From Aphrocallistes beatrix (lineage: Eukaryota; Porifera; Hexactinellida; Sceptrulophora; Aphrocallistidae): a stretch of 64,000 bases of DNA. The position numbers were made by a program, and so were the translations under genes. The notes beneath the pieces were generated by a model. The model was given only the letters and a program-made list of their open reading frames with translations. It made no database searches and was not told where the DNA came from. How positions within the stretch are numbered: the first letter of the stretch is position 1; each line of letters starts with the position of its first letter. The stretch spans positions 2,852,001-2,916,000 of the forward strand of contig OY725495.1 of assembly GCA_963281255.1 (NCBI GenBank), read 5' to 3'. This document shows, in pieces, positions 38,185 to 60,472 of the stretch.

Positions 38185-38214
38185 TTATAGATGATTTCCT
38201 TAGCCTTTAGTTAT

Positions 38215-38856
38215 ATGGCAACATACTCGACTGCCGAAGCTTCACCTAAACTAACTCTGACATACTTCCCCGTCAGAGGAATCGCAGAGGTAGCCAGGAT
38301 GATATTGAAGCACAAGGAGGTGGAGTTCGTGGATGAGAGACTGACGCAGAAAGAGTGGGATACTCGCAAGTCCCTGTCCCCCTACGGCTTCATGCCGTAC
38401 CTCACTTTAGAGGACGGCACTGTTATCGGGGGCAGTATTCCCATCTACACGTACTTGATCGCCAAATACGGACTGGGAGGCAAGAATGTGGTGGAGGACT
38501 GTCTGCTCATGTCAGCTGTAGACTGCATGAAGGAGATCTGGAATAAGATCCCTCCCTACTCCCAGCAGACAGACCCTGCCAGGAAAGAGGAGCTCAGAAC
38601 GCAAGTCTTGGATATGTGTAAAACTAAACTCCCATTTTTAGAGGCCAAAGTGGCCAATGGTCATCTGGAGGGGGTGTCAGGGGATGGACTGGTGAACTAC
38701 TCAGAGTTCTGGGTAATGCAGATATTCGACCAGATTAAACTGATTGAACCTTCGTTTGGAGAAGATTATCCTAAATTGAAAAGTATTGCAGATAATGTTA
38801 GGGCATTACCGAATATAGCGAAATGGTTGAGAGAGAGACCTACTAGTGCATTTTAG
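38215..38856 (+). CDS. Sigma-class glutathione S-transferase
   Basis: A cytosolic glutathione S-transferase of 213 residues, within the usual 200-225, in one exon. It would conjugate glutathione to electrophiles; members of this class also act as prostaglandin D synthases. Residues 13-90 form the thioredoxin-like domain: LTLTYFPVRGIAEVARMIL carries the expected catalytic tyrosine (Tyr17), followed by PYGFMPYLTLEDGT and GGSIPIYTYLI, where the usual Gln-Ser of the glutathione site is Gly-Ser. The helical C-terminal domain ends LPNIAKWLRERPTSAF, typical of sigma enzymes. The start at 38215 (MATYSTAE) fits the family; an in-frame ATG at 38191 would add eight residues. TTTAG just before the start may be a splice acceptor from an unseen leader exon. 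AATAAA follows 7 bases after the stop. A Helitron-like end lies 30 bases upstream. Confidence 0.9.
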   Translation: MATYSTAEASPKLTLTYFPVRGIAEVARMILKHKEVEFVDERLTQKEWDTRKSLSPYGFMPYLTLEDGTVIGGSIPIYTYLIAKYGLGGKNVVEDCLLMSAVDCMKEIWNKIPPYSQQTDPARKEELRTQVLDMCKTKLPFLEAKVANGHLEGVSGDGLVNYSEFWVMQIFDQIKLIEPSFGEDYPKLKSIADNVRALPNIAKWLRERPTSAF

Positions 38857-38862
38857 TTCTGT

Positions 38863-38868
38863 AATAAA
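38863..38868 (+). promoter_or_regulatory. GST polyadenylation signal
   Basis: AATAAA begins 7 bases after the GST stop codon, implying a very short 3' untranslated region. Confidence 0.7.
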
Positions 38869-40194
38869 GTTATTGCGATGTATTATTTTGTGATATTTTA
38901 TCTAGTCACACATTCGTACATATGATATAAAATATTTATTGCTCACTCCTGGGGAAATGTGCCAAAATGTGTGAAGTGTGATGTATACAAGAGGTGCCAA
39001 ACCCTGTAATAGGCTCTAATTTAGTACAGCCCCTCGGAGATTGAAAAAGAATTAGTTTAGAATCTACAGATATAGGATTCTTTGATGGTTTATATGCCAC
39101 CTGGCATCTTTTTTTTGTGAAATGTGTGACTTTCCTGTTTTTCAATTTAGCAGAATTTGGAAAAACATACTCGCAGGGAAATTCAACAATAAATTATATG
39201 CAATTTGAGAGATAATCCTCTAAGAAATATAAACGAATCTAAAATACTTTATTTTCAGCATCTTTTATGATACAGAGATGGGACGAGAACTTTTGGAGCA
39301 CCTTAAGTACCGACCTACATTCGGATAATAATATTTTTTATTTATCATCTGTATTATGTTCGTGTATATAAATGTGATATTTTACATAAATTAAGATTTT
39401 TAAATTTAAATGAATTTCAACTCTTACAAGATCAAGCACGTATATTATAGTGCGAAATACTCGATCCCAGATTGCAAACTCTAGGAATTAGACCATCTAC
39501 TACTTGCATATATGCTCTGCTAGTACAATTATAATGCTATTAGGTCATAAATCAATTTAGCTGAGTCATTGTGAAATTCTTACATCATGATGATGTTTCT
39601 TTTATAAATCAGTTGAGTTCGTTATTAGCAAAGTTGCAATCGAATAGTTCGATACGTATTCGGTGTGACCGAATATTATTTGCCAAATAGTTGATATTCG
39701 ATTGGGAACCGAATATCAGTATTCGTATCGGTTGGAATAACTGAATATTATCAGTATTCGACTATTCGTATTCGGTTAGGGAACTATTCATGAATACTGA
39801 TATTCGGTTCAATCGGTTTCAACCTTGAGCAACTCCCCTATTAGCAATATTGCTCTAATAGCAACAAATATTCAAGTTCCAAGTGTAGATTTTGTATTAA
39901 TTCTGTTCCATTATTAGCAACTTCACGTATTAGCAACCTTTTTGTGAGCAAAACCCGAGTTGCTAAAAGGTGAATTCCACTGTAATATATGTGAGGAACC
40001 TCCATGCTCCAACTGCAAAAAGTTGAGAAACTCAAACAAAAATCAAATTATTACTGAATTATTTTTAGAATTTCCATTTTTGAGATTATAACTGCCATTT
40101 TCACGTCCTAAAATGCTGCAGGTTGTTCCAAATCGTGTGCTTAACGAGAGTATTAATGCAAAATATTTCTTGTTTTAATGTTTGATAATACTTA
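38869..40194. other. Intergenic repeats between GST and SSRP1
   Basis: Near 39228-39312 GATACAGAGATGGGACGAGAACTTTTGGAGCACC is a diverged right end of the mariner family seen at 32377-33490. Between 39640 and 39835 the words ATTCGGTT, CGAATA and their complements recur densely, a decayed palindromic element. TTGCTAAAAGGTGAATTCCACTG near 39960-39985 resembles pogo-like ends. No gene is seen. Confidence 0.5.
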
Positions 40195-40903
40195 GGGCGT
40201 TCAATATGTTCCAGGCACAACTTTATAATTCGAAAGGCAACTGAAACAATGTATTTTAAATTATTTTATTGTATTCATTAGAGGATTATCTTTCTACTGG
40301 CAATTTGATTTGCTGTGATAATATAATTATTGTGGTTAGCACACACGATTTATACACCCGGTTTACGGTCCTAGTACTTATGGAGAGTTTTAGCTTAATA
40401 TTTTGAATTCTGCAAATCAAATAACATAGAGATTGACTTCTTTGAACTCTTCTAATTTTAAGCTGGGGGAATAATGTAGTTTTTTTTGCCATTCACTGAC
40501 ACTTTTGTCCCACTTTTAAGTGGCAAAAGATTGGGAAAAATCCACCATAATTAGTATAACATCTTTTTATCACAAAATATTCAACTGAACACCTCCCGTT
40601 TGCATCTTCTCCATGCCTTCTTGATTATTTTACATTTCAACGATATTATTTAACAATTTTGAGGAATTTTATCCATACAAATTGTTTTCCAGTCTTTTTC
40701 AATGGCAAAATTGAATTTTTTATAAGGACCGTAAACCGGGTCTATAATCGTGTGTGCTAACCACAGTAATTATATTAATAACACAGCAACCAACATACCA
40801 GTCGAAGCATAATCCTGCAACGAATTCATTAAACGAATTGAAAATACTTTGTCTTTGTTACCTTTTGACATATAAAGTTGGGCCTGGAACATATTGAACG
40901 CCC
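40195..40903. mobile_element. Mariner-like element with about 190-bp terminal inverted repeats, second family
   Basis: The ends GGGCGTTCAATATGTTCCAGG and CCTGGAACATATTGAACGCCC are perfect over more than 20 bases and lie between TA dinucleotides. Complementarity continues inward to TTATTGTGGTTAGCACACACG and ACCCGGTTTACGGTCCT. The core shares GTGGCAAAAG and AACACCTCCCGTTTGC-like blocks with 32377-33490, although the outermost 50 bases differ. No transposase is present. Confidence 0.75.
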
Positions 40904-41159
40904 TAAGTAATCCATTACATTTTTTTAACTAGTTACCACACTATTATTTTCTTCCTACAGTGTACGATTGTGGTCATTGATTCCTGTTACCAAGTTATCA
41001 GAATCATTTGTAATCACTACCTAACCACTATAGCTCCATTTAAAGTTTCGTAACGACTTTCACTTCCCGACTCTAGTCACCCAAATGCTGAATTAGTAAA
41101 TAATGCATCCTCCTGCAGATAGAGTGACCCAGTCCCTCTCCACACTAGAACTCGTCTCT
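40904..41159. promoter_or_regulatory. Presumed SSRP1 5' flank and leader
   Basis: A 256-bp segment between a mobile element and the SSRP1 start codon. No TATA box or other clear promoter element could be assigned. Stop codons in frame upstream support the ATG at 41160 as the start. Confidence 0.35.
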
Positions 41160-44100
41160 ATGGACTCCGCTGAATACTCAGACATATTCTCTGTTGTCAA
41201 GGGAGTTCTTGTTAGTTATTACTAATTCTATGTACATTCAACATTTAGATAATGCAATTTCAAATATAGTTCATATCAACTTAAATATAGAGCATCCATG
41301 TATTTTAATATATTTTTGTGCTACGTGTAGTGTATTCGTTCTATGGACCAACATATGATACAGAATAGATGAATAGTTCAAAGTATGTCAAATCGTCATG
41401 ATTTCTCATCTTATGAGCTCCTTATTTAGATTATTGTACCAAAACTATCCACATCCAAACTAACACTTGTTTTTGTTGTCCCAGTTGGCTTATTTGAGAC
41501 TAAAAATTTAGTCGCGTCATCACCAACGTATTGAATATAATGTAGAATAATGTGTTGAATAGGATTTGACTGGTTGACAGAATTAGTTAATAGAATCAAG
41601 CATGGGCGTATAATAGCGGGGAGCGGTATGTTAGCTTCGCCCCCCCATGAAGTTCCGATAGGTTTCCATATTCCAATCCTAGTATTAGCTAATACAGTCG
41701 ATTCTGCTTATTGATCGCATCGAGTCTCGATATTTTGTCTTATTCTAAAACTAATATGTCTATAAGTACTGTCCTGTTGTATGCAGACTTGTAACTTCTC
41801 TAAAAATAATATCAATCTCAGAATTGAATGATTGTTTCCCTTTGAACATATTTACGTATATATTTCAATTGTTTTATTACTTCCTGTCTCAACCTGCTTT
41901 TGATAAGTCTCATTTCTGGTACAAATATTAGTTTTGTTAGTTTATGTAACGCGGGTATTATAAGTACGTACTATGCTTGAACCACTGTATTGAACTAATA
42001 TATCTAACGTCTGAGTGAATAGGAAATATGGCCATGCACGCATTTCTCTATTCCGCGAATGAATGTAGTCCTTCCTTTAGGATAAAGGGAGACTGAAGTT
42101 ACGCAGTGACAGCGTTCTATTCCAGTCCACCCGGACAGGAGCTGTGGACAGAATCCCTTCCAGGGAGATTAAGCTCTGCGAATGGATGAAAGTGGCTAAA
42201 GGCTATGAGTTGAAGTTCTTGATGGAGTCAGGAAAAGTGCACAAGTTCGACGGATTCAAAGAATCGGTTAGTTATCTCCATTCTCTAGCACAGTGCTCAT
42301 CATATCACTCCTGACCTAATAACCGTGTTTTATTGCAACATAAACGTGGAAATAAACCAGTGGCGGGCAACCTTAATCCTTAAGTGGGCCACAATTGGGT
42401 CTTGCGGGCCCAAATCTGTCAGTTCTTGTTACGGTCACACCACCATGGCCGTAGCAAGAACTGACATTAGAAACCTACAAGTATATGGAAGCAATGTAAC
42501 AACTAAAATTGTACTTATAAAAGCAAAAATAAGTAAAATCAATTGAATCATTATATAATGATTATAGAAAATATATTGATATTCAGCATCAATTTCACAC
42601 CAAAATTAGGCAGGCCGATTTTGTATTACAATCACCAACACGCGGCTCCATAATAGAGTGTTTTGAAAGAGTCGCGGGCCATCAAATTTAGTCTCGCGGG
42701 CCCCAGGTTTCCCACCGCTGAAATAAACGAATATAGTGAGGCGTTATTAAGTTCTGGTATTGAGTGATCTTTATATGCCACATTGTCTGATTTCAGATCA
42801 TATTTGTAGGAGTTTACTAACCTTTCTGAGTTCATCAAGCACAACTACAACTTAGATCTGGATGAAGTTGCTCTCAGTGTGAAAGGCTGGAACTGGGGAA
42901 ACGTGCATTTTATAGGTTCTGTTAGTTTAGATGAGTTCATTCATATCTCGCTGGCTTGTTTTATATTTTTGGGCAGGCACCCTGCATACGCTCGTAATTA
43001 GGCCTTACAATCCAGGGATTATTTTGCAATATACCCGGGATCCCAGGATTCTGGAATTTATTCAGTTTGTACGATTTGTGATATCCGGTCTAAATCTGTT
43101 CTAATTAGCAAATGAAGGTATTAAATATAATTATTATGCGATAGAGTCACAGACATGATTGGTTGATTAAATGCATTCATTAGGCTCACTCCTGAAGTTC
43201 TCAGTGGAGGAGAAAACTGCGTTCGAGATACCTCTCAGCCAAGTGAGTCAGTGCACCAAGAACAAGAACGAAGTGGTTCTAGAGTTTCACCAGTCAGACG
43301 ACGCTCCCGTCTCCCTGGTGGAGATGCGGTTCCACATCCCTACGAATCAGGAGGACGAGCAGGATCCTGTCAAGGTAGCTCTCTGAACCCCGAATCTCAC
43401 TTCTCATGTTCCCGTGCTAATGTATACTATCGCTAGTCTACGCGATTGCACTGATATGCTAAACTAAATTTAATTTGACATACGAGCTGAACTAGTAGAG
43501 ATATGGCATAAGAGAGAGTAATGTCTACACAGTCAGGAAGCTGAGTGTCTTCTTGGCTCTCTTGGCTCTCCTCAGGTTCACCGCCTCGCCCGCCTTCCGC
43601 AGCTTCACACTGCTGTGGCCCTCGTTGCCCACCTTCCCCAGGGTGGCCTTGCACTTCTCGGAGAACTCCTTGAGGAAGCCGCTGGGCAGCTTCAACGTCA
43701 CCATGCCATCCTGGCGCTTCACGATGGTGCAGCAGGTCCCCGCCCCCCTCGCTATCCTCCCCCCGCCGCCCGGCTTCACTTCCAAGTTGAATACGGGGTG
43801 TCCGTCCGGGATACTGCTCAGGGGGTATGTGTTCCCGGGACGGGGGTCGAAGCTCCTGATATCGATTAGTCCCTCCTCTCGCGTATAGATAGGCGTGTCT
43901 CCTACCTTAATTCCAAATAACAAACACACATAGTTTTACACCATTCAAGAGCACCCTGGCCGAAGAAAACATATTCCTATCTGGGATAAATTCCAAAATG
44001 TCAAATTCTAGAATAGCGGAACTTGCATCCCTGGAAGTTTCGTACTGGAATTTTAATCCTGAGATTTTGTCCCTGGATGACCCTTTCGCTCTTAACTATT

Positions 44101-47100
44101 TCTCAATCAAAAGCCCCCATTTTCACCCCTTTTTTCAACATACTCCACTCCAAAAGCCTCAAATACCGCCCCTTCCATATTAATACCCGTTTATTTTAAT
44201 CTAATGAGACGAAATTCCCATGAAACTTTCCAGAGACGAAAATCCGTGGGACAAAAAGTCAGGGGGCGAAAGTTCCACTTCCTATAAATTTAATATTATT
44301 TTCCGGCTTGGGGGAATAATCTTCTATGACTTATAGTGAATCTATCTATCGGGCTTACTTTCATATGCTCGTTGGCCATGATTTGGAAAGTCTCCATGCC
44401 TCTAGCCACCACTGCCACGTAGCCTGACCTCTTTACTGATTTCAGCAACTCGATTATTCTCACTCTTGGGAAATCGTCCTTCTTCTCCTCAGTAGACCAG
44501 AAGTCCTCGGACACCTGTAATGTACCAAGTCTAGGATTATCTAGGAGCATCTCGCCCTCCTTTAGGCTTATAATTTGAGTCCGATTGTCTTAAGGAGCGC
44601 TAAGATTAAGACTACTCTCATATACATATGTTATTCAGCGATTTGGGCGTATGGAGAATTAGGAGCATATCATAGGGATTGGTTTGGCATGCTACGCGTA
44701 TCCAGGTTCAGAACCGCTCAATAGATGCTAGGTTAGATTTAGTTTAGAGCATTGAGTCATACCTGTCTAACTTGAGTTGTCTGATGCGGCAGAGAGCATC
44801 TGAGAACTGCTAGCCTACCTAGCAGCTGCGCTCTACTCCTTAGCAGCGATTGCATGCTGGGTGGTCTAATCTGCACACAAGGATGATAAAGTAATGGTTA
44901 GATGCTGTACGAGGCACAGGAAAGTTTTTTTTTCCTGGGGTTTCTACTAAACCTAGGCATTCTTCCCATTACGTATTGTTGAAAGCCAATTTAATGGTAC
45001 ATCTTGCAAATCGAACTATTTGATCGGACTTTGCGAAAACACGAAATAGAAGTGGCGTTATGACACACCGACGTCGCCACTTTTCCCAGCCATTTTCAAT
45101 ACGATTTTAATTTTAAAAAAGGATTTGGATATCAAAAAGATCGTAGAATACCACTAGTAACGTATTACACATATGTCAAATCCATATACAGTAGAACTCG
45201 GTTAGTACGTACTCTGGATAAGACGTACTTCGGCTTAGTACGTACTCATTTTTCTGAACCAAAATTCATTAATTCTATAGATTCCTATATTTTGGGTTAA
45301 TTTAGTTTATTGCTTACGTCATCCAAACGAACAAATATCAAATATTCGTCTCAGACCTACAAAAATAAACTTTATGTAATTAAGATTTAGAAAATACCGT
45401 AAACTGGGGCGACTTTGTCGTAAGAGGTGACTTTGTCCCACAATAGCAAATTTAATAAAATATACTGAAATATTGCTGTTTAATAATATTACTAATTAAA
45501 CCCTCGCCTGGCTAGGTCTCAAAAGTATAAATAGAGAAAACCCCACTTTCATTTTCACTTTCAATGTACTTTCATTTTCACTTTCAACATTCCTAGCCAA
45601 CCGCGGGTTAATTAATTAACCCTACTTGGACTCGGAATGTTGAAGTGAAAGTGAAAGTTAATTGAAAGTGAAAATGAAAGTGGGAATTTTATATTTATAC
45701 TTTGTACCCCAAGTCCAAGTAGGGTTAAATACCTTTGGATATACTATTGAGAGTTTCGTTCAATATATTATCAATGTGATTACATTGATTCATAAGTTTG
45801 AGTATATTTAATTAATTAAAATTGCTATTGTGGGACAAAGTCACCTCTTAGGGCCCAGTTTACGGTATCTTTTTGATTTTTGAAAATATTATTACTGCGA
45901 GAAATTTACTCCGTAAACAAACTTCTGGTTAGAATAACCTCACTTTTGTCTAGAACTTCCACGATAACGTGCTGGCTAAAGCAGACATCCTACAAGCAAC
46001 TGTAGATGCGTATGCCATATTCGATGACGTCCCCTGTCTAACCCCCAGGTGTGTTCTTCATTCAGTTACTCCTGTTTATTTAAGAATCTATGGTGTATTT
46101 CTACGTACTAGTTCAGGGAGATTTTTTGCTGCTTTGTGCAAGATATCTCAGCTAAAGTATGCTGCTCGTACAGGGTTTCTCCAGCCACCCCTCCCCTCCC
46201 CCCAGGGAGCTGGTTAGCCCCCCTTAATTTAAACTTCAAGCCACCCCCTTCCCCATTAAAAAATCGTGTCTATATCCTTGTAGTTGTAACTAAACTACAG
46301 TTCTGTGATATCGACAGAATTGTAAATAATTCCTAGAATCAGAATCAGAGGTAAATGCAAATACAATCGACTCTGCTTAAATATAATCACATCGGTGAGA
46401 TGAAATTTTGCCCCGATTAAGCAGAGAACCCTATTAATCGAAAATATTTTGTATTAGCTTCTATGTGTGAGAGCTATTCCGGTACTGCCAAGAGTGACCA
46501 GATTAAGCGGTTGATCCGATTAAACAGTGGTCCTATTAAGCGGGGTCGACTGTATTCAGCTGCACGCCACCTTTTAATACATGTATATCACAATTTTTTT
46601 TGGTATATTAAAATTTTCTTCAAACCTCATTGTTTCTGAGCTGAACTAGAACTGTAGATTAATTTTCGATTTTAAAATGATCTTAATTAAACTAGTAAGA
46701 TCGCATTCCTCTAAATCCAACATTCTGGGATCAAGTAATAAAAGTTAAATTCAAAGTTTAATAAATACAAGTACATGTACAATGCAAAAAACACTAATAT
46801 CCATAGTTCAATAAAAGAATAAGTGATTCTACTTTGTTAACTGTCCATTACAAATTGCTAAGTGTTTGGTAGCAGCGTGTCTCGAGACAAGAGCATCAGC
46901 TGGGTGGACCCCTCCGGAGACAAGACCACCCGGCCTGACTCCGTGACGCACAGGTCCGACACTCTGGTGCGGGTCAGCCCTTTCAGATGCAGTCTCTCCG
47001 CCAGGCCCTGTCCGGGGCGCAGCAGACAGAGAGCTGTTCCCGCCATCCCTACCCGCTTCGAGTGAGAAGAGGTGTGGACGAGGAGGTCTCCTGTGGGGGA

Positions 47101-50100
47101 GAGGTGGAGAGAGCGGATGGGATGCGGTAGGTCTCCGATTGCCATCTCGTAGAGCAGTTGTCCCGCCGCACTCAGCACGTAGAGAGTGTTGTGCTGCGAG
47201 GATACGGTGTAGATGCAGTCGTTCTCGTCCACTGCCAGGTGCTTGGGGGAGGGTAGCAACGTGTGTGGCTGATAGGAATGTTCTCCTATCGATACGGCAG
47301 CAGAGAAGTCTTTCTGGCAGATTAGCACGCAGTGTCTGGCTGTGTTGGCGATGACGAGCTGGCGCGCAGAGGTGTGTCCCATCTCGTGGGGGTCCGCGAG
47401 GGGCTGGTGGCCGACGTGGGACATGGAGTAGAGGAGCTGTCCGTTGCGCAGGAAGACCTGGAGGCTGCTGGCCTGTCTGCTCGTGACGTAGAACCTGTCC
47501 CCGTGCTGGTAGAAGTGGTTGATGGGCGCCAGGAGGGTGGAGCTGTGCAGAGCTACGGTGTGCAGCAGCTGTCCCTCCGGGGCTACCAAGTGGATGAGGT
47601 TCTCACCCGCGTCCAGGAGGTAGAAGTTATCGCCGGGCGCCCGCGACAATCGCACCAGGTCCGTGCGGTCGTGAGACAGGCCGAGCGCGGGCTTGGAGAT
47701 GGACTCACTGGCTAGCACCCCCTGACACCTCGAGATGTTCCCTGCGAGTGGCGCTCTGGCCAGGAAGTGGGGGTCGATCTGGAAGGAGACGGACGGGGTC
47801 TGTCTGGAGAGGGAGCGCTTCTGGCTGCTGGTGAGGACGGACTGGTAGAGCGCTTCTCTGTCCACCTCTTCGCCGAGACCGGTCTCTCCTGTCTGCACCT
47901 AAGGACGATATTGAATTATGATAAGTCCTTAGTCGATTATGATTATTGTATCGTCATCAATCAAATCCCTGATTGAGATTATAGTATTTCATAAAGGAGA
48001 CAGATTAGGGATTACCTCTTGGTGTGATGCATTCTGTAGTCTGGTGACGTCATCAGATATGGCAGACTCGAGGAGACTGAGTTGGGACTCGACTTGCTCA
48101 GTGATGCGAGAGAGAGTGTTGAGGAGAGATTCACGTCTCTCCTTCAGTGAGTGTAGCAAACTGTCGAACGTCTCAACAACGTTATCCCTCACACGATCGT
48201 GCTGCTTTGTAGAAAGAGATCTCAGCTTCTGAATCCTGCTCAGCTCGTTGCTGAGCTCCTGTAGGAGTTCACTGTTCCGGCCTTCATTAGACATTCTGCT
48301 ATTGCGCTAACTGACTCTGTAGGTTGCGATGATCTCTTTAAATAATCAATTAATTGATTCACTGCGTCTACTCACGTTTAAATTATTCATTCGTATGTCA
48401 TAATACTACAGTTGAGTTAATGAGAAGGCAAATAGTATCAATTTACATTAATAACATGGCTTCATCGACTGGAGAGTGTCTAAAACAAAAGAGGGATGTT
48501 TCACTGCATCTCGGCATGATGGCCAGCACAGTGGGCAAAAAGTGCCTTACTGTTCTCGGTTAATATGAGCGAACTTGAAGACCACTTTTAAGTCCAGCAA
48601 TGATGACCGCATCATCAATGCCTGGCCTCTCAGCATATTAGCATATTGAAATTCAAGCCAAGGCTGAGAATCCACGACTGCTAATAAAGTAGACGAATCC
48701 GTGTAGGCGTGTCGTAAAAGCCAAGAAAAACCCATCAACTTCAAAGTTCTTGATGGTAGAAGTCCTTATTGTTCAGACACCCTCAGATCAGTCGTTTCGT
48801 CAATGGTCAGAGAGAGAAGTGCATCATGTTTGATATCCTCTACCAGATTCCGAAGAATTGTATGGTGGGCCATCTAGAATTTGGTGATGTATAGCTGGTG
48901 AAGTCCATGCACGTTTTGCTGATGTCATCCACTGCTTTACATCTGAGTTATATTTCCCGAGATCTAAAGTCTGACAAAATTTGAATCTTGTGCTGTGAGA
49001 CCTCTCAAAGCTTGACCTAGGCGACCAAGATAGAAAATCACATCAAAAATAGCTTTCAATTCCCCGTGAGTCTCTTACTCATCAAGGCTTATGACCGATT
49101 TTAATTTATCCCCGATTACTTCTTCAGCTTTTGAAAGGCGACATAGCGCCCACAGATAGTTTGCGGTTTAGCTAAGTCATGCTTAGAAAGTGAATCCTTT
49201 CCTTTCCTACACTTAGACTACCACCCTTGATGAATGGAGAACCGTTAATATCTTGTTTAACCCATGAAGAAAATCGACGGTGTTCCAAGGTCCAGCAGCA
49301 AGGCTCACACCATGCAATATTACGAGACAGATTGTATCGAAGCCATCAAAATTCATTTGACCAAGTTTCACTTTGGAATGATCGCTTTTTGTGCTGTCTC
49401 GAACCGATATTCGTTATTGAAAAAATGGATTTTCCCAAGAGCCTCAACATCCCTACCTGCAGCTGATCTGAGTATGATTCGATTGGATTACGACTAGGTA
49501 CAAATTCTTTCAGGTGACAGGATACAATTGTTTGTTGAGGAATATCACCTGCAGCAGGAATGAAAGAATCCACAGGTTTTAGGAAATAGGTTACAAGCGT
49601 ATCATTTGAATCCAGTTCTTTTTCACAAACATTATGTTGTAATTGCTAAATTTAATGTTTAGATAAAAATGCTGGGGTTTATCTAGGAGCGTGGAAATTG
49701 AATTAGTCCACCATACAGTAAAACAGAATGGAAACCAGGTTGTGCCGCTTATCGAACCTACTAATTTCGCATTTTTGTTTCGCCCATCGTAGGGTTAGGG
49801 TCAAATACAAATGTATTTATTTCTAGTTTATCAGAAAAACCTAAGCTCTATGTCAAACAAACAAACTTCAGTTCTTCGATGCATAATTGTAACAAAAAAT
49901 GGGGCGCGTGCCACCAAATTGTGTCGCGCGACACAATTTAGCATAGGAAATACCCAGGCAGACCAGGAATTAAATTTCAAAATTTGTCTTTGAAAATAGA
50001 TTATAAGGTAACTTTTACGTAGAATCTGAATTTCTGTCTTTTTGACATCAGAACAATTAAAAAAGCACAAAAGACGACACTCTCAAACCAGTATACTGTA

Positions 50101-53100
50101 CAACTGCATTCCAATTCCAATTCATTTCAATCCAATGAAACAAAAATCTGCCAATGAAAGGAAGCTAATTTCGCTTTGTTATAATTTTAAAATAATTTCT
50201 CCTCTAGAGGTCACTACACAGTGAAGGCCTACCCAACCTTCTTTCAGCTGCACGGCAAGACCTACAACTACAACATTCCTTACAACACCATCATCCGTCT
50301 GTTCCTGCTGCCCAACCCCGATGGCATCCACATGTTCATCGTCAAGTACCTGGAGCCCCCCATCAGACAGGGACAGACTCGACACAACTTCGTGATTCAG
50401 AACTACACGAAGGAGGACATGTGTGGGATTACGCTCACCATTCCAGACGAGGATCTGGCTACGAAATTTAATGGAAGGTATGCATACATTCTGATTTCTA
50501 AATTATTATTTTTGTTAAAGTTTGCTTACCATTTTGTGAACAAAAACAAACAATTGCTTTTGTCTCGGAGCAGCCATTCTTTTTTCACAATTTATACATT
50601 ATCCAAATGATGGTTAATTTTGACATCTAAAATGATTGTTAATTAATAAATAAGTTATGATAATATTATGATAACCCTAATTTGACGTGGGGTCAAAGGT
50701 ATAAATAGAAATGACCCCACTTTCATTTTCAATTTCAGTTCACTTTCAATTAACTTTCACTTTCACTTCAACATTCCAAGGCAAACGTAAAATGTTCGAA
50801 CTATCTTATAAGCGACTACCACAAACTTTGAGATAAGAAAAGTCTCTCAAATGAATGAATTCCTCCGCTCTAGCACGGGGAGATGATAGTTCAGTACTAT
50901 TTACATTTTCCTTTTGCTACTAACCAGAACTCGCCTGTAGACTAACCCGCACCATGACTGGTCCCACGTACGAGGTGTACGCGCGCATCCTGAAGGAGCT
51001 GGTGGGGAGGAAGATCACCATCCCCGGCAGCTACACCAGCAGGAGCGGCGCCCATGCCATCCACTGCGCGCTGAGAGCTAACCCCGGACTGCTCTATCCG
51101 CTGGAGAAGGCGTTCCTCTTCATCCACAAGCCCCCCGTCCTGATCCGGTTCGACGAGGTGGCTACTGTCAACTTCGCTCGAGTGTCGGGGGGCGGGACCA
51201 TCAGGTCATTCGATTTCGAGGTGGAGAACAGGAACGGGACTTCTTACACATTCAGCAACATAGCCAGGTAGGGGCAGCATGGAGACAGGTATTCAGATTG
51301 TGAGTTTCTGAAAACTCTCTTTATTTCTGTGTTTTCAGTTCCAAGAAGATTTATCCAAGGACTGTCCCAGAGTTCCTCTAAGATGTAGAATATTTCAGAA
51401 CTGAATCAAACTGTCCGAATACATATTTGGATTATATTTTGTGATTCTATTGATTATCTCGCTTTTAACATTGGACGCTTCATTCTGTAACACATGCAGC
51501 GTCTTCAACTTTCTAGCACTTACATCATGCAAATATTCATTTTCAAAATGACTTTTTTGGGTTCTTAATCTAGTTTGCAATTGCATTTCATAAAATGTGT
51601 TTATGTAAATCAAAAAGCGATTATTTAATTCTTATTTATCTGTGAATTATTCTCAATTGCTCCCAATTATATACGCGAGATGACTAATAGTAGAACTACA
51701 AAATCTCCATCCCATTATATGGATATTTTTATAGTTAGAAATGCTACATACTGTACATCGTAAAGGAACTTTTAGGCAGACCATGTACACATTTAAAATT
51801 AAATTATAGTCCAGGCGATATTTGAAAAAAAAGCATCAAACTTGTCATGCAACTAGATTGAACGTTCCAAAGGATTTTAGACGTATTGCCACCGCGAAAG
51901 TGGCACTACATCTGAATATGTTTCGAAAAGTTAAATCTAGTTGCTTGAGAAGTTTCATGCTTTTATGATAAGAAATGCACGATTATTAACTATCTTTGTA
52001 GAGAGGACTATCCCGCTCTGTGTGATTTTGTAACTCTAAAGAAACTGGCTGTCAAGAACAAAGGACAGAGGGTTGGTTGATAAAATATCTTCTCTACTCA
52101 TGAATTCAACTGGGGCTCACAATCCCGGGATCCTTTCCCGCGGGATTGAGTGAAAAGGCTGATTGTATGAATGAGAAAAATTTCAGACAAAATAGGTGCC
52201 ATAGGGATTACAGATCCTTTGGCGCTGTCAATTAAAGTAATAAATTCCGAACAAATCATTATTTAATATTCAATATATGAAAAAATTCTTTACGCATGCG
52301 TAATTAATACTACAATAACACCAGTTCTTATAGAATATGTACGTATGTGTGCTCATGGTTGCCCAGATCCCCCCCCCCAGAACCCAAAGATAAAGCCCCA
52401 TAGACGTAATACAGGATTTAGTTTTTGAGCCCTCCTAGAAGCCCAATCTATTAGCTAATGATACCAAATGTTCGGCGCCCCTGGGGGTGTTTTGATGCAG
52501 TGGTTCTCAAACCTTTACATCGTGTGCCACCATAATGACCGATATTTAAATATAGCCCCATAAAATAGACCATTGGCGTACCCCGAGAGTCAAAAGGGTC
52601 CGCAAACATGGACGTCGTCAGAATTTTTCCTCTAGGGGGAAAACACAGCAGTTTTTATGATGCAGGGACACAACATCCAGATGGGGGGTCTGGGGGCGGT
52701 GTAAGCCCTCAGTGGGCATACGCGGTTCCGCTGGTGCGGCGAGCGCCGTACCTCCTTGTGTGTAGCTCCTATGTTAGGGGATATACTTATAGAATATAGA
52801 ATGGATAGTATGCAACTTTCGTCCGTTCTGAATTAACTAGTGAACCAATTTGTATCTTATCAGCACCCGACAAGATATCATAGGTAATAAATCAGTAAAT
52901 ATTACATCGATGTAGTATTTACTGCATTCAAATACCTTGTACGACGTAGCTGGACCAAATTTGAATAATATTTCTGCTTTTTCCGAGTGGATGTGCCGCG
53001 CCTGAAGGGGGTTCACAAACTTGTGGGTGCTGCAATTTTACACGAGAATAAAAGGGAGGGGAGGGAGCTTCAGATGCAGCCTGTGAACAATGCGGTGTAC

Positions 53101-56100
53101 GCCCCTGTAAACCATTAGATAGACCTAAGGTCGTATGGCTCGCAGGTAGTCAAACAGATTGAAACAGACATATTTTCCAAAAAAAAAAATACCCCAGTTT
53201 TCCTCCTTCTTTCCCATCGCTTTACAGTTGCCATTCAGACATTCCAGAGAGTCCTGTGGGCAGTCAAGTGAGCATATTCAGAAACTTATCGCATCTGGCA
53301 ATAACTGTACTCCACTATGCTCACTTGACTGAGCGGGACTTTGTGGGATGTCTGGGTGGTAGCTACATGGAAAAGGTCGAGGCAAATTGGGAATCTTTTC
53401 ATGTTCCCATCAACTGCCAGATAGCAAGTCAATTACAGAGTGTAGTTGAGATGTGTATTTCTAGAACATCCGAGACTCGATTCATGATGGGATAGATGAC
53501 AGCGACAATGACGAGACAGACCATTACTTAGAGCAGATGAAGGCGGAGGGAGAGATGAAAGACAGTGAAGATGGTGAGTCAAGGCTTTTCAGTTCAGATC
53601 TAAGTTTTAGTTCAAATGTGTTATTTTCATCTTGATAGGTCACAAATCACGGAATAGTCTAGTCTCGCAAACACTCCAATCGCTTCATCGATAGTTTAGC
53701 TATGTCATTACGGTTATCCCTTGGGTCGCGAATCATTTAGAAGGTCCATAGTTCTGAATTGGTAGGACATGTTGAACTATGAGAAACTGTATATTATATA
53801 GTACAGGGTGATCCAAAAGTTCTGCAACTATAAATTCTACTTCATTGATTTGACTAAGATAATTTAATATAAGTATTGGAACAAATAAAAGTATTGGAAC
53901 ACCCAGAATTTTCACAAAATAATAATTATAAAATGGGCATAATTGTGAAGGAGAATCCATCTAAATTATGCCATTTAATGCTTTTCTGATATTAAATTCA
54001 TGTTCTACACATTCGAATTATCCAGGATATAAGCTTTCTGAAGATAGTTTATTTACGAAAGCTAATTTTTGTGCATCTTGAGCCAATTGTCACAAATAAA
54101 AACCACTATACATGATGGTGATATGTGGCAAAATTGCTTTCGGATGCAATAAGTCCCTAGAAATATAATATATGGGTAATTCGATACGTAGAACACGAAT
54201 TTTATATCAGAAATGCACTAAATGGCATAGTTTGAATGAATTCTCATTGACCAAATTACCAATTTTATTACTATTATGATGGGAAAATTTGGGCTGTTCC
54301 AATACTTTTGGCCAGGTAGTGTAGTATTAACTATATTTTTAATACTAAACGTGTATATTCTGAGGTTAATTAATAGCTAAAATTAGTTAATACGTAGGGT
54401 ATTCCTACTATTGTGTGAACAGGGCCGGCCCCACCACGGGTGTTCTGGATATCTGGACACCACTTCCTCCTCTTTTATCTAATTGTACAGTATATAGCCC
54501 TCTATAAATGGACAAATAAATAAATCAATATTTCAAACATTTGGTTCATATTCTTCTCGGCACAGACTATCGACCAAATGTGTACTGTAATTCTTTCTAA
54601 CCACTTTAGAGGATTCCAGCTATGCTGCTGAGTCTGAAAAAGATGACAGATTAGAGTGAGTATTTAAGGTTGATACTATTTTAATGGAATATGTAGGATT
54701 TACATATTTAATGATATTTTGTTGAATACTCAATTTAGAGGTTCCCCTACCTTTCTTTAGATACGACTCCGATGCTTCTGTCTCATCTCACTCGTCTGAC
54801 GGCAGTGAGCCCGCGTCCAAAGATCATAAGCCGGCCAAGCACAGCAAGGCAGAGAAGGTGGTGAAGAAGGAGGAGAAGGATAAAGAAAAGAAACAAGAAA
54901 AGAAAAAAGAAAAGAAGGTTAAGAGCCCCAGCAAGCATAAGGAGAAACGCAGCACAAGTGAGAAACCTTCTAAAGTGAGTCTAGATTCGATTAATCATGA
55001 TTCTCCTAACATTATTAAAATACGTCAACGTCGAGGCTGTGGAGTAGTCACACCTGTAGCCTAACACATTTAAATCAGAGTATAATATATATTCTATGAT
55101 CCCTGCATACATTACTACCATATTATGAAATTCGAGAAATCTTTCAGATATAGAATTTGATATGTTGGAACGATTTAACTGTAGTTTGTTTATGTCACAG
55201 TTAAAACGTCAAATCTTGCCTGAAAATTTCAGTCATTTCCCATCAGTTATTATGCATAATACACGTACAGTCAGGGTCGCTTATTATGAACCCGCTTAAT
55301 ATGAACATTCGTTTATTATGAACTAACCTCCTGGTCCCAATTTCACTTTTTAGATAGGATTTGTATTGAATCAAGTTCGCTTAATATGAAGTATCTCTAT
55401 TATGAACAGATTTTTTGGTCCCCTGCTGGTGGTTCACAATAAGCGACCCTGACTGTACTTGAGTTTGAGTCATTATTGACAAGGTCTGGTCAAGGCTGGA
55501 TTCAGTTAACCGGTTAACCGGCTAACCGCCGTTAATCACGGTTAACGGTTTAAAAAATCTTGGATCGGTTAGCCAATCTGCTTTATTTTCTAAATATTTA
55601 GACTAATTTCATTGTTTTCAGATGGAGATTCATGAATATTACTTCTAAAATTTGATTTACAATATTATTTCTATTTTCTTAACCAAATACTTAAGTAGTA
55701 TATTTCGAGATAATTGAAAATTGTAATTTTTTCAATATCAGGTTAAATATTAGTCGAAAAATCCATATTTCTATCAATTAATATTGACATCGGTTAACCG
55801 GTTAACCGTCCTGGAGGAAACCAAAATAACCGAGCCCGAATATCGGTTAACCAACCCCAGCCCTGGTCTGGTGAACGTTAGTATCACATCCCTACTTGAG
55901 TGAGGCTTAGTATTTGAAATAAGTTACCATAAGAAATAAAATAAGAATAGTATTACACTCTAGGCATAATATACATAGTATATCTGAAAGGAGACTAGGG
56001 GTTATTGGACACAGCTCTTGAGTAGCACGTAGATGAGGACAGTTCCCTTCTTGCAGTAGGGGTCTCGAATAACGGAGGCGATGGGGATGGTGCAGATCTT

Positions 56101-59100
56101 CTTGTTCTGATTCACGCTGTCACCGGTTCCCTCGTAGAAGTTCCGAGCCAGCTCCAACCCGTCCTCTCCCTCGAAGTGCAGGGACTCGTTCTCACGGTCC
56201 TGGTTCACCAACACAACGATGGACTTTCCTCTGAACGGCCACTTGACCGTCTTGTCCCCTGCCCCCTTCACCGTGCTCAGTTTCACGTGTAGTTTCACGT
56301 CTTCTAACAAGATGGAGCATTTGAAGGCGTATCCTTCCAGCGCGAAACCCGGACTCTCGTAGTGGATAGCGTCGGATCCGAACCCAGTGATCTTCCAGCG
56401 CAGAGCTGTGCCTATCAATGACGTCATCACGATGGCATTCAAATAACGCACCTTATTTCCCAGCTTAGTATTCTGTTTAGCCAGCTCTTCCATCTGCACA
56501 GATTTCTGTCTGTCTGTCTCTTCTAACCGAGTGATGCGATCCAGCAAATCTTTCTGAGTGCTAGCGATACTCGCATTGAACAGTGCGGTGTGTAGCTCCG
56601 AATTCTCTCTCATATGCTCTCCCAGCTGTTGCCTCCTCAGCTGCGTAGCGCCACACCCGTACCGGACGTAGGAGCAGTCGTGTACGCTGTTCATGCACTC
56701 AGACTTCAGATGGGCAGCAGCCTCTCCAAGTTTTATCTGCATTCCGCAAGCATTCCTGCACTCCACCAAGCTTTCCCTGCACTCCTCCTGATGCAGTGGG
56801 AGTTCTGCTGAGCTCACTTTTCTCTGACATAAATTGCATTCAACTTTAAGCTTAGCGCAGTCTGTATTCTCGTGTAGCGTAACATCACACCTCTGCAGTA
56901 CCATTCCACAGCCCAGGGAACACTCAATCATAAAACAGAGGCACTCATCAACGTGCTTTGTAAGATCGCAAATCTTCCCTTTCCAATCGCAGCCCCTCAT
57001 ATGCAGTGGACACATGATAGCCAGCTCTAGCACGGACTTCCTTGCAGAGGCTAGGCTCTGGTAGGCAGCTTCAGTTATCTCGATGCAGTAGAGACAGGCC
57101 TGTAGCATGCCTTCGTTGATAGTGCACGCGTCCCGCATGATTCCCTTGCACTTGGCGCAGATGAGGAAGCTCTCTTCTATCGGGGTCAGTTCGGTGAGGA
57201 GCAGGCTCTGCTTGTACCCGCTGAATCCCTCCGCGGTCTGCATGAACAGCAGCTTCTCTCTTATGTCTGGCGTTTCCATCGTTGCTAAGCGGGTGCATTA
57301 AATAATTAAATAATGTCCTGATTGCATGCACCTCTCAGTACAGAGTGCTTGATCTGCTCTTCTCCCCGAAATGAATAAAATTAGGTTTCTACTTACGTTT
57401 ATCGTAGCGCGAAAACCTGCTCGAGTGAATAGATACCGTTTGTAGCAACAGCACAATTTGGATCTTTTGAGGATTCAAATGAAAATGATAATGAGAATTC
57501 AAATGAAATTACGAGTAATACGTAGATCAGGTATCAAGTTGAAAAAACGATAAATCAACTCATTATGTTTATTAATTAAGACAACCATTGAATCCATTGT
57601 GTGTATTAGAAATCTAAGAAGGCGAAAGATCCAAACCAGCCCAAGAAGCCAGTCAGTGCGTACATGATTTGGTTCACTGAGAATAGGAAGAAGCTAATAG
57701 AGAAGTACGGATTGGTAGGGATTGGAGAAACTGGCAAGAAGGGAGGGGAGCTGTGGGGGAAGATGACAGGAGAAGATAAACAGGTATTATTTCATATTCT
57801 CTGTTCGATCTTATCACAATCATACATGTACAAGTGATGCTGTTATATACAGCCACTGAATTCAATGCGCCTATGCTTACATACACACATACGGCGTAGA
57901 ACGCCATCCATGCCATAAATGGGCATCTCCCTACAGGAGCTTCTCTAAAAAGAAGCAATTGGCTATAGTTGAGGTGCCCTAGTCGATGACATTCCGTACT
58001 AAATTTATTGGATATATTGATAATTTGACCAAAAATTCCCTGTCCCCGGCACTATCACGATATCCAATATCTGCTGTTACTGTAGCTAATGTCTTCATAG
58101 ATACTGACAGTGACTGACAAAATAGATCTACACGTAGACTACTGTGCTAAGTCAATTTCTTTTGTGGTCTTGTTCTAAATGAGTTGCCAAATTTCCATCG
58201 CGCCGATAGATATCCCACTTAAGTACGATATGATGTCTCTACTTACCCCTTCTTGGGGATAAAATTACTCCACTGCAGGTTAATAATCTCTGTTCTATAT
58301 GAAATAAATTCTTAAACTTCTTGTACCCCTTTGTCCATAGCCTTACGTAGCCAAATACGAAGAAGCTAAGAAGAGATATGAGCGAGAAATGAAAGACTAC
58401 CAGGCCAGTGGCGGGGGGGCCGATATTCCTACTAGGTGAGTCATGATAAGTGCAGTAAAGCTAGAGAAGTCTTCCATATATAGACTCCGCGTAACTGGGT
58501 GCATCCAGTCACGATATTTCCTCCAGATTAAAAGCGGAGTTCCCAATTAAACGACGAAATATATTATTAGCTTCTTTATATAGGAGCTATTCGTTCAGGA
58601 TTTTTGTCCCAATCAAGCGATATTTCCCGATTAACCGGTGTACCAATTAAGCGGAGTCCACTGTATTACTACGCATACATGTTAAAAAATACCCAGCTTC
58701 ATGAGATTAGTTAGCCCTACTCCTGCATATGCTGATTTCAACGTAGATACGTCGGGATTAGATTATAACTAGGATGGAGAACTTAGAAGTTATAACTTTC
58801 TCTAATATTGGTTTAGCTATATTAATTGGATTTTTTAACATTAGAATGTCATCGCATAAACTTCCTATCTCTGTTTAGCTCTCGAGCATCCAAGTCTACG
58901 AAAGGAGCTTCAAAGAGTGAGAAAAAGCGAAGTACTCCTAAGAAAGGCACACCTCAGAAAACCTTCAAGAGCAAGGAGTTCGTTAGCACTGATGATGACG
59001 AGTCTAGCGGCGAATCCAGTGCGCCTAAGAAAAAGGAATTTAAGCAAACAAAGTTATTTAAAACAGAGATGAAGAGTGCCAGCGATGATTCCAGGTAGAA

Positions 59101-60472
59101 TGCGATTGTATTAACATGTCCACTTATGTCGCTCTCAAGAGTGTCCTCATAATTCTCCCTTCCCATTGCTAGCTGGCGTCTGAGACCTGAAAGCAATACT
59201 TGCACTATGCCATTGCTTCTAATGTTCTCTGTTTTCGTGAATGCTCAATAACAACTCTGCCCGATCACTAGTAGATCAGAATAAGTTCACCTCTACTAGT
59301 GTTTATACGTATTTTTATCAATATAATATGTGTAAGGCTCTTGCATAATTTAGCTAATATTTACCTGCTAGTACGTAGCTAATACAAATCCCTCCTCCAA
59401 GTGTAACGTTGTTAGCAAACGAAACAGAATAAACACAACGATGAGATTCTAAAGTATATTATAAACCCTACATTCTAGTCTCTATATGAATAGCATTATA
59501 TAGACTATAGTACATTCAATGATGTTCCAATCCAGACTATCTGCTAATTCGATACTACTACAGTCGTATCGATTTCAAATTGCCCTACTAATCTAATAAT
59601 ATATTTTAACAGCGTTGAGGAGATGGATGTTGACCTTAGTCCGAAACTAAAGCCTTCTCGGGGAGGTAGAAGCACTCGATCCAAGACTAACGACGATGAC
59701 CTGGTAAGTGCTGAGTAGAGTAATCACGAATAATGATTTTACACGGACGGTACGGCCGTACACCTGTTCATGCAATTCTATATTCACCATTGCATCTGTT
59801 TATACAGGTTACTTACTTAAGTAAGTTGCGCAATATTGTTAATTTTCGTATACGATGATAATAACGACAAATATATCGAATGTATCTATATGTATTTTGG
59901 GAGCCGCACATTTGCGTACATCACAGTTGGAAAGGACTTTTAAATTTAGTGGCATCATTTTTTCATAGGCCAATATTAGTATATTTAAGAGGTATTGCTT
60001 TTAGAACTATATTTTAACTATCCCTTTCATAAACACATTTATACTTCGGTTATGATAATTAAATTACAACTCCCATTTTAAAATTAATGAGTATAATAAG
60101 TTTGTGTGAAAAAGTAACTGATGTACGCAACTGTGAATGATAAAATTGTACGCAATTGTACTGTATGCAAACGTGCTAGACCCTGTATTTTGAAGCAATA
60201 CAAACATGATAATTTTTTGTTTTCTCAACGGATATTGATAAAACAGGCAATGGAAATTAAAAATCCGTCTGATACCTTTTAGATCGAAATACTTCAGCCA
60301 TATCTGGCCTTTAAGTCAACTCACTCTAGTTTATCTGGGCGTGTATTCTAATTCAATGACTGTTCTGATCTCACAGGTTGCATTGCCGAGTGGGAGCGAC
60401 TACGAGGAGAGTCTAGCATCAGACGATAAGAGCAACAGCGGATCTGCTCCTGGTAGTGATAGCGACATGTAG
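41160..60472 (+). CDS. SSRP1: FACT complex subunit SSRP1
   Basis: SSRP1 pairs with SPT16 in FACT, the nuclear histone chaperone that opens nucleosomes during transcription and replication. Sixteen exons join in phase to 776 residues (human 709): 41160-41204, 42081-42266, 42810-42915, 43184-43374, 45954-46048, 50208-50477, 50941-51267, 52002-52071, 53465-53573, 54610-54655, 54761-54974, 57610-57783, 58341-58435, 58879-59094, 59613-59703 and 60377-60472. Residues 1-112 form the N-terminal domain (VKGWNWGNVHF). Tandem PH-like middle domains follow (FEIPLSQVSQC, LFLLPNPDG, GLLYPLEKAFLFIHKPPV, IRSFDFEVENRNG). An acidic stretch lies near 440-500. An HMG box starts near 563 (KKPVSAYMIW) and ends in exon 13. 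The tail is lysine/serine-rich (FKSKEFVSTDDDESSGE) and ends acidic. The first donor, GGA|GTTCTT, is weak. Three antisense genes lie in introns 4, 5 and 11. Confidence 0.93.
42358..42720. mobile_element. Non-autonomous hAT with perfect AAATAAAC duplication
   Basis: The left end CAGTGGCGGGCAACC and the right end GGTTTCCCACCGCTG form an inverted pair. The identical octamer AAATAAAC flanks both sides (42350-42357 and 42721-42728). It is 363 bp with no transposase. It lies in SSRP1 intron 2, 90 bases upstream of exon 3. Confidence 0.88.
43469..43474 (-). promoter_or_regulatory. Candidate polyadenylation signal of nested MRPL2
   Basis: Minus-strand ATTAAA about 50 bases downstream of the MRPL2 stop and still about 95 bases short of SSRP1 exon 4, so the nested transcript can end within the intron. 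Confidence 0.5.
43525..44855 (-). CDS. MRPL2: Mitochondrial ribosomal protein L2 (reduced), nested in SSRP1 intron 4
   Basis: uL2m is a core protein of the large mitochondrial ribosomal subunit, near the peptidyl-transferase centre. Three minus-strand exons join in phase: 44855-44763, 44514-44359 and 43905-43525, about 209 residues (alternative exon 2 start at 44559 adds 15). Exon 1 encodes a basic, non-acidic leader (MQSLLRSRAQLLGRLAVL) typical of mitochondrial targeting. Exon 2 gives VRIIELLKSVKRSGYVAVVA and ANEHMK. Exon 3 begins VGDTPIY and contains GNTYPLSSIPDGHPVFNLEV, KPGGGGRIARGAGT and CKATLGKVGNEGHSS, the L2 SH3-like domain. Missing are the GGR..GR..GGGHK block at the N-terminus and everything after KAG, including the basic C-terminal extension, so the protein is about 95 residues shorter than the human precursor. 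Whether extra exons restore these parts is not visible within the intron. The whole gene lies antisense between SSRP1 exons 4 and 5. Confidence 0.82.
45397..45865. mobile_element. MITE with CCGTAAACTGGG ends carrying a nested TTAA element
   Basis: The outer ends CCGTAAACTGGGGCGACTTTG and CAAAGTCACC..CCCAGTTTACGG sit between TA dinucleotides. The inner arms continue through GACTTTGTCCCACAATAGCAA and its complement. Between the arms a second element (45496-45728) has inserted at TTAA. Located in SSRP1 intron 4, between MRPL2 and exon 5. Confidence 0.7.
45496..45728. mobile_element. piggyBac-like miniature element(s) at TTAA
   Basis: TTAA tetranucleotides border two adjoining units: one from TTAAACCCTCGCCTGG to CCAACCGCGGGTTAA, and one from TTAACCCTACTTGGACT to AGTCCAAGTAGGGTTAA. 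Both contain dense ACTTTCATTTTCACTTTCA repeats in opposite orientation. A related single unit lies at about 50690-50790. TTAA targets and CCCT ends point to the piggyBac superfamily. Confidence 0.6.
46364..46552. mobile_element. Pogo-like MITE
   Basis: The left end CAATCGACTCTGCTTAA and the right end TTAAGCGGGGTCGACTG are an inverted pair between TA dinucleotides. Internal words CCGATTAAGC repeat. This is the usual form of pogo/Tigger-derived elements. In SSRP1 intron 5. Confidence 0.7.
46757..46762 (-). promoter_or_regulatory. Candidate polyadenylation signal of the NHL gene
   Basis: Minus-strand ATTAAA lies about 96 bases downstream of the stop codon of the nested NHL-repeat gene. Confidence 0.4.
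46858..48294 (-). CDS. Coiled-coil/NHL-propeller protein, nested in SSRP1 intron 5
   Basis: Two minus-strand exons, 48294-48016 and 47898-46858, join in phase 0 (CAAGAG|GTAATC; CCTTAG|GTGCAG) to 439 residues. Residues 1-93 are heptad-rich and predicted coiled coil (LLQELSNELSRIQKLRSLS, then RRESLLNTLSRITEQVESQL). From about 115 the protein is a beta-propeller-like region of repeated strands with NHL-type spacing: DNFYLLDAGENLIHLV, DRFYVTSRQASSLQVF, LAVDENDCIYTVSSQ and ISDLCV-like VSDLCVTESGRVVLSP. The layout resembles the C-terminal half of TRIM-NHL proteins, but no RING, B-box or filamin domain is present, and the start codon lies directly before the coiled coil. It could be a derived TRIM-NHL protein that lost its E3 module; specific function is unknown. 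It is antisense to and wholly within SSRP1 intron 5. The exons are much richer in GC than their surroundings, arguing for a real gene. Confidence 0.8.
48420..49660 (-). pseudogene. hAT transposase relic (TTF-zinc-finger type)
   Basis: On the minus strand, fragments of a hAT-like transposase occur in order but with stops and frame changes. VSCHLKEFVPSRN, near 49520-49570, is a possible zinc-finger part. IFDVIFYLGRLGQALRGL lies near 49000-49070. HDALLSLTIDETTDLRVS lies near 48780-48840 and matches the hAT block around the first catalytic aspartate. The copy is heavily decayed; terminal inverted repeats were not found. It lies in SSRP1 intron 5, downstream of the NHL gene on the plus strand. Confidence 0.6.
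50660..50800. repeat. Relative of the TTAA/ACTTTCA element
   Basis: ACCCCACTTTCATTTTCAATTTCAG and the following ACTTTCAATTAACTTTCACTTTCA match the internal repeats of 45496-45728. The ends are eroded. Located in SSRP1 intron 6. Confidence 0.5.
51339..51382 (+). other. Possible alternative terminal exon of SSRP1
   Basis: A strong acceptor (polypyrimidine tract ending GTTTTCAG at 51338) precedes a short segment that, joined to exon 7, would read 14 more residues and stop at TAA (51378-51380). The main splice form skips it to exon 8 at 52002, which fits family similarity. The segment has no known counterpart; it may be a decoy site. Confidence 0.3.
51830..51967. repeat. Small inverted-repeat element
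   Basis: AAAAGCATCAAACTTGTCATGC near 51831 and its imperfect complement ending near 51966, with AACTAGATT and its complement just inside, make a 137-bp MITE-like palindrome 35 bases before SSRP1 exon 8. Confidence 0.6.
52072..53464. other. SSRP1 intron 8: MITE fragments
   Basis: 52366-52490 is a diverged relative of the GGGGCACCGAAC hAT-like MITE. CAGTGGTTCTCAAACC at 52499 is a lone hAT end. Near 53265-53345 CAGTCAAGTGAGCATA and its complement form a small palindrome. No nested gene is seen. Confidence 0.45.
53804..54327. mobile_element. Tc1/mariner fragments in SSRP1 intron 9
   Basis: ACAGGGTGATCCAAAAGTTCTGCAAC near 53804 is a lone mariner-type end. Just inside, AAAGTATTGGAACACCCAG near 53887 and CTGTTCCAATACTTTTGGCCAGGTAGTGTA ending near 54325 are the two ends of a Tc1-like element of about 450 bp, the left one truncated. 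No transposase is seen. Confidence 0.55.
55268..55455. mobile_element. Pogo-like MITE (CAGTCAGGGTCGCTTATTATGAAC ends)
   Basis: CAGTCAGGGTCGCTTATTATG at 55268 and CAATAAGCGACCCTGACTG ending at 55455 form an inverted pair between TA dinucleotides. TTAATATGAAC and TTATTATGAAC repeat inside. A fragment of the same end lies at 60964, inside another element. Confidence 0.75.
55491..55865. mobile_element. hAT-like element with GGTTAACCGG repeats
   Basis: The left end CAAGGCTGGATTCAGTTAACC and the right end GGTTAACCAACCCCAGCCCTG form an inverted pair. GTCTGGT flanks both sides. The arms consist largely of GGTTAACCG words. It has 375 bp and no coding part. It lies in SSRP1 intron 11, downstream of the nested TRAF-like gene. 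Confidence 0.7.
56002..57279 (-). CDS. TRAF-like zinc-finger/MATH protein, nested in SSRP1 intron 11
   Basis: A single uninterrupted minus-strand frame of 425 residues. Residues 20-70 contain a partial RING-like stretch (LICAKCKGIMRDACTI, then ACLYCIE) with fewer cysteine/histidine ligands than a normal RING. Residues about 88-225 are a run of TRAF-type zinc fingers (CPLHMRGCDWKGKICDL, ECSLGCGMVLQRCD, CNLCQRKVSS, ECRNACGMQIKL, CSYVRYGCG). Residues about 230-275 are a coiled coil (LLDRITRLEETDRQKS). The C-terminal 150 residues are beta-rich and resemble a MATH/TRAF-C domain (KCSILLEDVKLHVKLST, KWPFRGKSIVVLVNQ, CTIPIASVIRDPYCKKGTVLI). TRAF proteins link receptors to ubiquitin signalling in the cytosol; the weak RING leaves E3 activity doubtful. 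The absence of introns may reflect retroposition. It lies wholly within SSRP1 intron 11 in antisense orientation. The start at 57279 is the first ATG of the frame. Confidence 0.85.
   Translation of the reverse strand: METPDIREKLLFMQTAEGFSGYKQSLLLTELTPIEESFLICAKCKGIMRDACTINEGMLQACLYCIEITEAAYQSLASARKSVLELAIMCPLHMRGCDWKGKICDLTKHVDECLCFMIECSLGCGMVLQRCDVTLHENTDCAKLKVECNLCQRKVSSAELPLHQEECRESLVECRNACGMQIKLGEAAAHLKSECMNSVHDCSYVRYGCGATQLRRQQLGEHMRENSELHTALFNASIASTQKDLLDRITRLEETDRQKSVQMEELAKQNTKLGNKVRYLNAIVMTSLIGTALRWKITGFGSDAIHYESPGFALEGYAFKCSILLEDVKLHVKLSTVKGAGDKTVKWPFRGKSIVVLVNQDRENESLHFEGEDGLELARNFYEGTGDSVNQNKKICTIPIASVIRDPYCKKGTVLIYVLLKSCVQ
58478..58665. mobile_element. Pogo-like MITE in SSRP1 intron 13
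   Basis: ATAGACTCCGCGTAACTGGG near 58479 and AATTAAGCGGAGTCCACTGTA near 58645-58665 are imperfect inverted ends, with AAGCGGAGTTCC and GATTAACC words inside. TA at the right border is clear; the left is eroded. Confidence 0.55.

Follow-up and report, generated by a model that had tools for sequence, protein, structure and literature searches.

Three unrelated coding genes nested antisense in separate introns of the SSRP1 gene of the sponge Aphrocallistes beatrix

The analysis concerns a window of 64,000 nucleotides from the genome of Aphrocallistes beatrix (assembly GCA_963281255.1, contig OY725495.1, positions 2,852,001 to 2,916,000); positions given below are those of the window. Its plus strand carries the gene for SSRP1, whose coding span, from 41160 to 60472, is split into 16 coding exons, located at 41160-41204, 42081-42266, 42810-42915, 43184-43374, 45954-46048, 50208-50477, 50941-51267, 52002-52071, 53465-53573, 54610-54655, 54761-54974, 57610-57783, 58341-58435, 58879-59094, 59613-59703 and 60377-60472. 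The exons lie in order on one contig and join in frame into a protein of 776 aa, and all 15 introns have GT-AG borders. Pfam domains POB3_N, SSrecog, PH1_SSRP1-like, Rttp106-like middle and HMG box were detected in this order, all scoring above their cut-offs. The best match in PDB is 9eh2_y, described as 'FACT complex subunit SSRP1' (E 6e-189), which we take to be the human chain; residues 3-700 of the sponge protein align to residues 4-687 of its 709.

Introns 4, 5 and 11 of this gene each contain one complete minus-strand gene model, as had been proposed in a previous, sequence-only reading of the same DNA. The three models, related to MRPL2, to coiled-coil/NHL proteins and to TRAF proteins, have three, two and one exons respectively, in agreement with that reading; each runs from an ATG to a stop, shows a coding signal and has its coding span contained within a single host intron. 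The SSRP1 exon 5, 95 bp long, is located between the first two of them, and its residues align to 9eh2_y without gaps, so that the host gene spans both the MRPL2-like and the NHL-like genes. The eventuality, raised in the sequence-only reading, that SSRP1 might correspond to two distinct loci is contradicted by this alignment, by the in-frame join of the exons and by the search of the whole genome (100.5 Mb in 28 contigs), where SSrecog was matched only once. SSRP1 is one continuous gene running across the nested units.

The gene within intron 4 (43525-44855, minus strand) is composed of three exons (44763-44855, 44359-44514 and 43525-43905), with GT/AG sites at its introns, and encodes 209 aa. 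Its first exon was defined by its reading frame, by the splice site and by its appearance, without homology support; by eye, it looks like a mitochondrial presequence. The 209-aa model matches the L2 C-terminal domain (PF03947, 94.9 bits, profile positions 2-94 of 126), with no further Pfam family matched at E 1; a provisional model of 190 aa had scored 95.1 bits with the same domain. Among solved structures, bacterial and mitochondrial L2 proteins were matched, including the 39S L2 chain 3j7y_D (E 2.7e-19), where residues before 113 and after 262, out of 305, fall outside the match. The L2 N-terminal domain (PF00181) was detected neither in the protein nor at its genomic place. Because of this lack of an N-terminal domain match and of the unmatched ends of 3j7y_D, the product is named here a shortened uL2m-like protein: judging from its sequence, it appears to be shortened at both ends. 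A missing N- or C-terminal exon was looked for in the minus-strand frames of 43380-45950 and none was evident, in an inspection made by eye and therefore insensitive; similarly, a motif presumably typical of the L2 tail, used as a query for a lost C-terminal exon, gave no match over 36000-44400 of the minus strand, in an equally insensitive scan. Two L2 C-domain matches are found in the genome, the one described here (96 bits) and a stronger one on contig C11 (155 bits), whose translation looks cytosolic. Between the stop codon and the donor site at which host exon 4 ends there are 150 bp, and the nearest poly-A hexamer, an ATTAAA at 43469-43474 of the minus strand, follows the stop by 51 bp, still within host intron 4; the 3' end of the gene can therefore fit in the intron.

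The gene within intron 5 (46858-48294, minus strand) has two exons (48016-48294 and 46858-47898), separated by an intron with GT/AG sites, and encodes a coiled-coil, TRIM-NHL-like protein of 439 aa, starting with ATG and closed by a stop. Its similarities to solved structures are weak, with E ranging from 5e-4 (TRIM3) to 2.4e-3 for TRIM3 and TRIM2, and the NHL region of Thin is weakly matched too (E 5.5e-3). No Pfam domain scores above cut-off in this protein, and no NHL, RING or B-box match is found at E 0.1. When compared to the genome, the protein matched only its own two exons at E<=1e-3, among the 96 candidates scored out of 135. An ATTAAA is present on the minus strand at 46757-46762, 96 bp past the stop.

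The gene within intron 11 (56002-57279, minus strand) consists of a single exon, from ATG to stop, encoding 425 aa. The protein contains a zf-TRAF domain (39.1 bits, cut-off 27), while TRAF-mep_MATH scores 21.7 bits, below its cut-off of 27.4. It belongs to a very large family, with at least 117 matches in the genome, itself included, when 99 of 478 candidates were scored; the best-scoring paralog among these is 37% identical. TRAF-like genes occur in long open frames, many of them clustered on contig C9 at about 3.96-4.57 Mb, roughly 1.0-1.7 Mb from the window. The first poly-A hexamer is found 415 bp past the stop.

The three nested genes belong, by their matches, to families with no relation to SSRP1 or to each other. 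The identities originally assigned were retained for MRPL2 and for the TRAF-like protein, with the qualification that the former is a shortened, uL2m-like form; the label 'NHL' depends on the weak TRIM3 match reported above. A recent duplication of the nested genes was considered and discarded, as no recent copies were seen among the scored candidates: the best-scoring TRAF paralog is the 37% identical one, the NHL-like protein finds only itself at E<=1e-3, and the other L2 match is the higher-scoring, cytosolic-looking one on C11.

Splice sites of the nested genes were picked by eye, and their coding character was evaluated by the following measures. The longest minus-strand frames in introns 4, 5 and 11 are 157, 346 and 431 codons long, and frames of such length were reached by 2, 0 and 0 of 300 random sequences, generated for each intron by a first-order model based on its neighbouring-base frequencies. 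In intron 4, the MRPL2 frame has 136 codons and is distinct from the 157-codon one, so that the case for this gene is carried by codon score and homology. In-frame codon scores, computed on host codon usage, exceed those of base shuffles by 7.2, 8.9 and 9.2 sd for the MRPL2-like, NHL-like and TRAF-like genes respectively, and the G+C content at third positions is 66-75% in the nested genes, vs an overall G+C of 36% in the residual introns. No overlap exists between nested coding exons and host exons. An artefact of annotation or assembly, with SSRP1 being two loci or the minus-strand frames being pseudogenes, is on these grounds most improbable: the former would have to account for 16 exons joining in frame and in the right order along a single contig, for the unbroken alignment to 9eh2_y and for the single SSrecog match, the latter for frames that are intact and exceed shuffles by 7-9 sd in codon score.

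Nearby poly-A hexamers had been reported for two of the genes, and they are indeed present at the distances given above for the MRPL2-like and NHL-like genes. When either AATAAA or ATTAAA is counted, 17% of random minus-strand points in this region have a hexamer within 100 bp; the hexamers are near chance level and constitute weak evidence of polyadenylation.

Introns 4, 5 and 11 measure 2579, 4159 and 2635 bp, which become 1248, 2722 and 1357 bp once the nested spans are subtracted, while the remaining 12 introns of SSRP1 range between 105 and 1393 bp. The residual sizes of introns 4 and 11 fall within this range, and nesting thus explains the extra size of two of the three introns; intron 5, at 2722 bp, stays large even without its nested gene.

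Other elements were observed in the window. Intron 4 also contains, between the start of the MRPL2-like gene and host exon 5, a repeat (45382-45880) with terminal inverted arms, pairing 45382-45408 with 45854-45880 and 45412-45462 with 45809-45859. By eye, it resembles a non-autonomous DNA transposon; its 45390-45880 portion has at least 102 matching pieces in the genome, itself included, with 40 of 1053 candidates scored. Two inverted arms of 122 bases, with 80% complementarity, are found in intron 9 (53887-54309) and are perhaps another transposon remnant. Upstream of SSRP1, two long overlapping plus-strand frames (4179-6026 and 5906-8506, spanning 4179-8506) look by eye like a retroelement of the Ty3/gypsy type, and three further plus-strand frames resemble, again by eye, a Pol III subunit of the RPC34 type (21678-22217), a cyclin (25459-26124) and a glutathione S-transferase (38191-38856). 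No tRNA gene was detected by ARAGORN over the window.

The reading by far best suited to these data, and very probably the correct one, is that of ordinary intron-nested genes, i.e. three unrelated coding genes residing antisense in SSRP1 introns with no special regulatory link to their host. Each nested gene would be transcribed from its own promoter, ending inside the host intron, and the SSRP1 pre-mRNA would be spliced across them. The three genes were probably inserted independently into existing introns: as the flanking host exons are conserved SSRP1 coding exons, insertion into introns already present is the simplest history, and the introns kept by the MRPL2-like and NHL-like genes point to an arrival at the DNA level. 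The TRAF-like gene might have followed another route, namely retroposition, which is suggested by its single exon as opposed to the intron-containing structure of the other two. This possibility, which concerns origin and is compatible with ordinary nesting, is rather unlikely, as many of the TRAF relatives among the matches listed are also long, single open frames, so that intronlessness looks like a trait of the family.

Gene nesting is familiar in animals; its reported extent varies widely, and the base rate used here is borrowed from other species. In Aphrocallistes vastus 2432 nested genes were reported, 12.4% of all genes, and the authors of that study consider a nested share of 5-10% typical and about 10% of nested exonic bases normal (PMC10282587). 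The same source lists 83 and 0 annotated nested genes for two other sponges, and attributes the near-zero counts of several genomes in part to the annotation method (PMC10282587). It also states that nested predictions are off by default in some gene-modelling programs (PMC10282587). A. vastus is comparable to the present case as a small animal genome with many nested genes; it differs in its short introns, and SSRP1 and MRPL2 do not appear as terms in the main text of the paper (PMC10282587). In Hormiphora californensis 2357 nested genes were counted in 1654 hosts (PMC8527503). From these totals, which include doubly nested genes, about 129 hosts with at least three nested genes are estimated by a zero-truncated Poisson model and about 147 by a geometric one. 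The likeness to Hormiphora extends to its being an animal genome of 110 Mb, where, according to the legend of Figure 4A, four genes are nested in a single host; the differences are that double nesting occurs for two of the four, that many nested genes are parallel to their host and that transcripts are known (PMC8527503). For other animals, one source gives nested shares of about 1% in human and 10% in Drosophila, with two thirds of the nested genes antisense (PMC4394429), and another gives 0.5% in human, 2.1% in C. elegans and 6% in Drosophila (PMC3786989). Among human hosts chosen for signs of interference, with coding and noncoding nested genes taken together, 23 of 74 were reported to contain two or three of them (PMC3192792).

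Individual precedents are also described. Human NF1, which hosts OMG, EVI2A, EVI2B and AK4P1, is similar to SSRP1 in having three coding nested genes, all antisense, as is a nested pseudogene; it differs from it in that its coding nested genes lie together in a single intron and the pseudogene occupies another, whereas three different introns are used in SSRP1, and in its size of 283 kb, vs a coding span of about 19 kb (PMC4394429). Drosophila tim2/2mit likewise places an antisense coding gene in an intron, the host having a role in chromosomal stability, but a single nested gene is present, and conservation and function were studied there (PMC3786989). The probability that all of three nested genes are antisense is 0.13 if orientation is decided by coin flip, and 0.30 at the two-thirds rate. 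The sequence-only reading had presented the arrangement as striking, and as pointing to antisense regulation or collision; as far as these sources go, such a view is not sustained, nesting being well known, the antisense orientation usual and NF1 a precedent. Multi-gene antisense nesting is part of the gene nesting already familiar in animals, to which the SSRP1 trio adds an example. A search of a collection of open-access papers for SSRP1 together with nested genes retrieved one unrelated paper.

A control was sought within the same genome. MCM has 15 matches, and the surroundings of one locus, 50 kb on contig C17, were examined. Three MCM-domain pieces are found there in order on the minus strand of C17:2300001-2349999, over about 49 kb, and are perhaps one gene with introns larger than 20 kb. 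Between the pieces, transposon-like or unassigned frames were seen and no cellular gene was evident, by eye, at this single locus and with limited sensitivity; the codon score, whose training set was SSRP1 plus its nested genes, misses the MCM exon itself and is not a sensitive gene finder. SPT16 has one match in the genome, and the 20 kb around it are uninformative on nesting. The MCM control, being one locus insensitively surveyed, argues to that extent against nesting everywhere in this genome, and hosts with as many as three nested cellular genes may be less common in it than in the published species.

A regulatory role of the arrangement was weighed against ordinary nesting. Antisense transcription, from one nested gene or from several, could interfere with elongation or splicing of SSRP1, thereby tuning FACT levels: the geometry permits it, with three opposed units in the host and the MRPL2 stop so close to the exon 4 donor, and in human hosts intron retention, exonization and cryptic polyadenylation have been linked to nested genes (PMC3192792). 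Against it, the nested coding exons are clear of host exons, the nested genes belong to unrelated families, and antisense is the orientation usually found for nested genes (PMC4394429). Regulation of this kind appears very unlikely on balance. Even less credit is given to a bolder version, in which the three opposed units act as a deliberate brake, their combined transcription slowing or truncating the SSRP1 pre-mRNA. FACT eases the passage of polymerase through chromatin, and for this reason the level of SSRP1 would, in such a scheme, feed back on its own antisense load.

Taken as ordinary nested genes, the SSRP1 trio offers a clean case of multiple nesting outside the model species and, as some gene-modelling programs leave nested predictions off by default, a reminder to annotators. 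If the antisense load did affect SSRP1, a general elongation factor would be linked to interference within its own gene.
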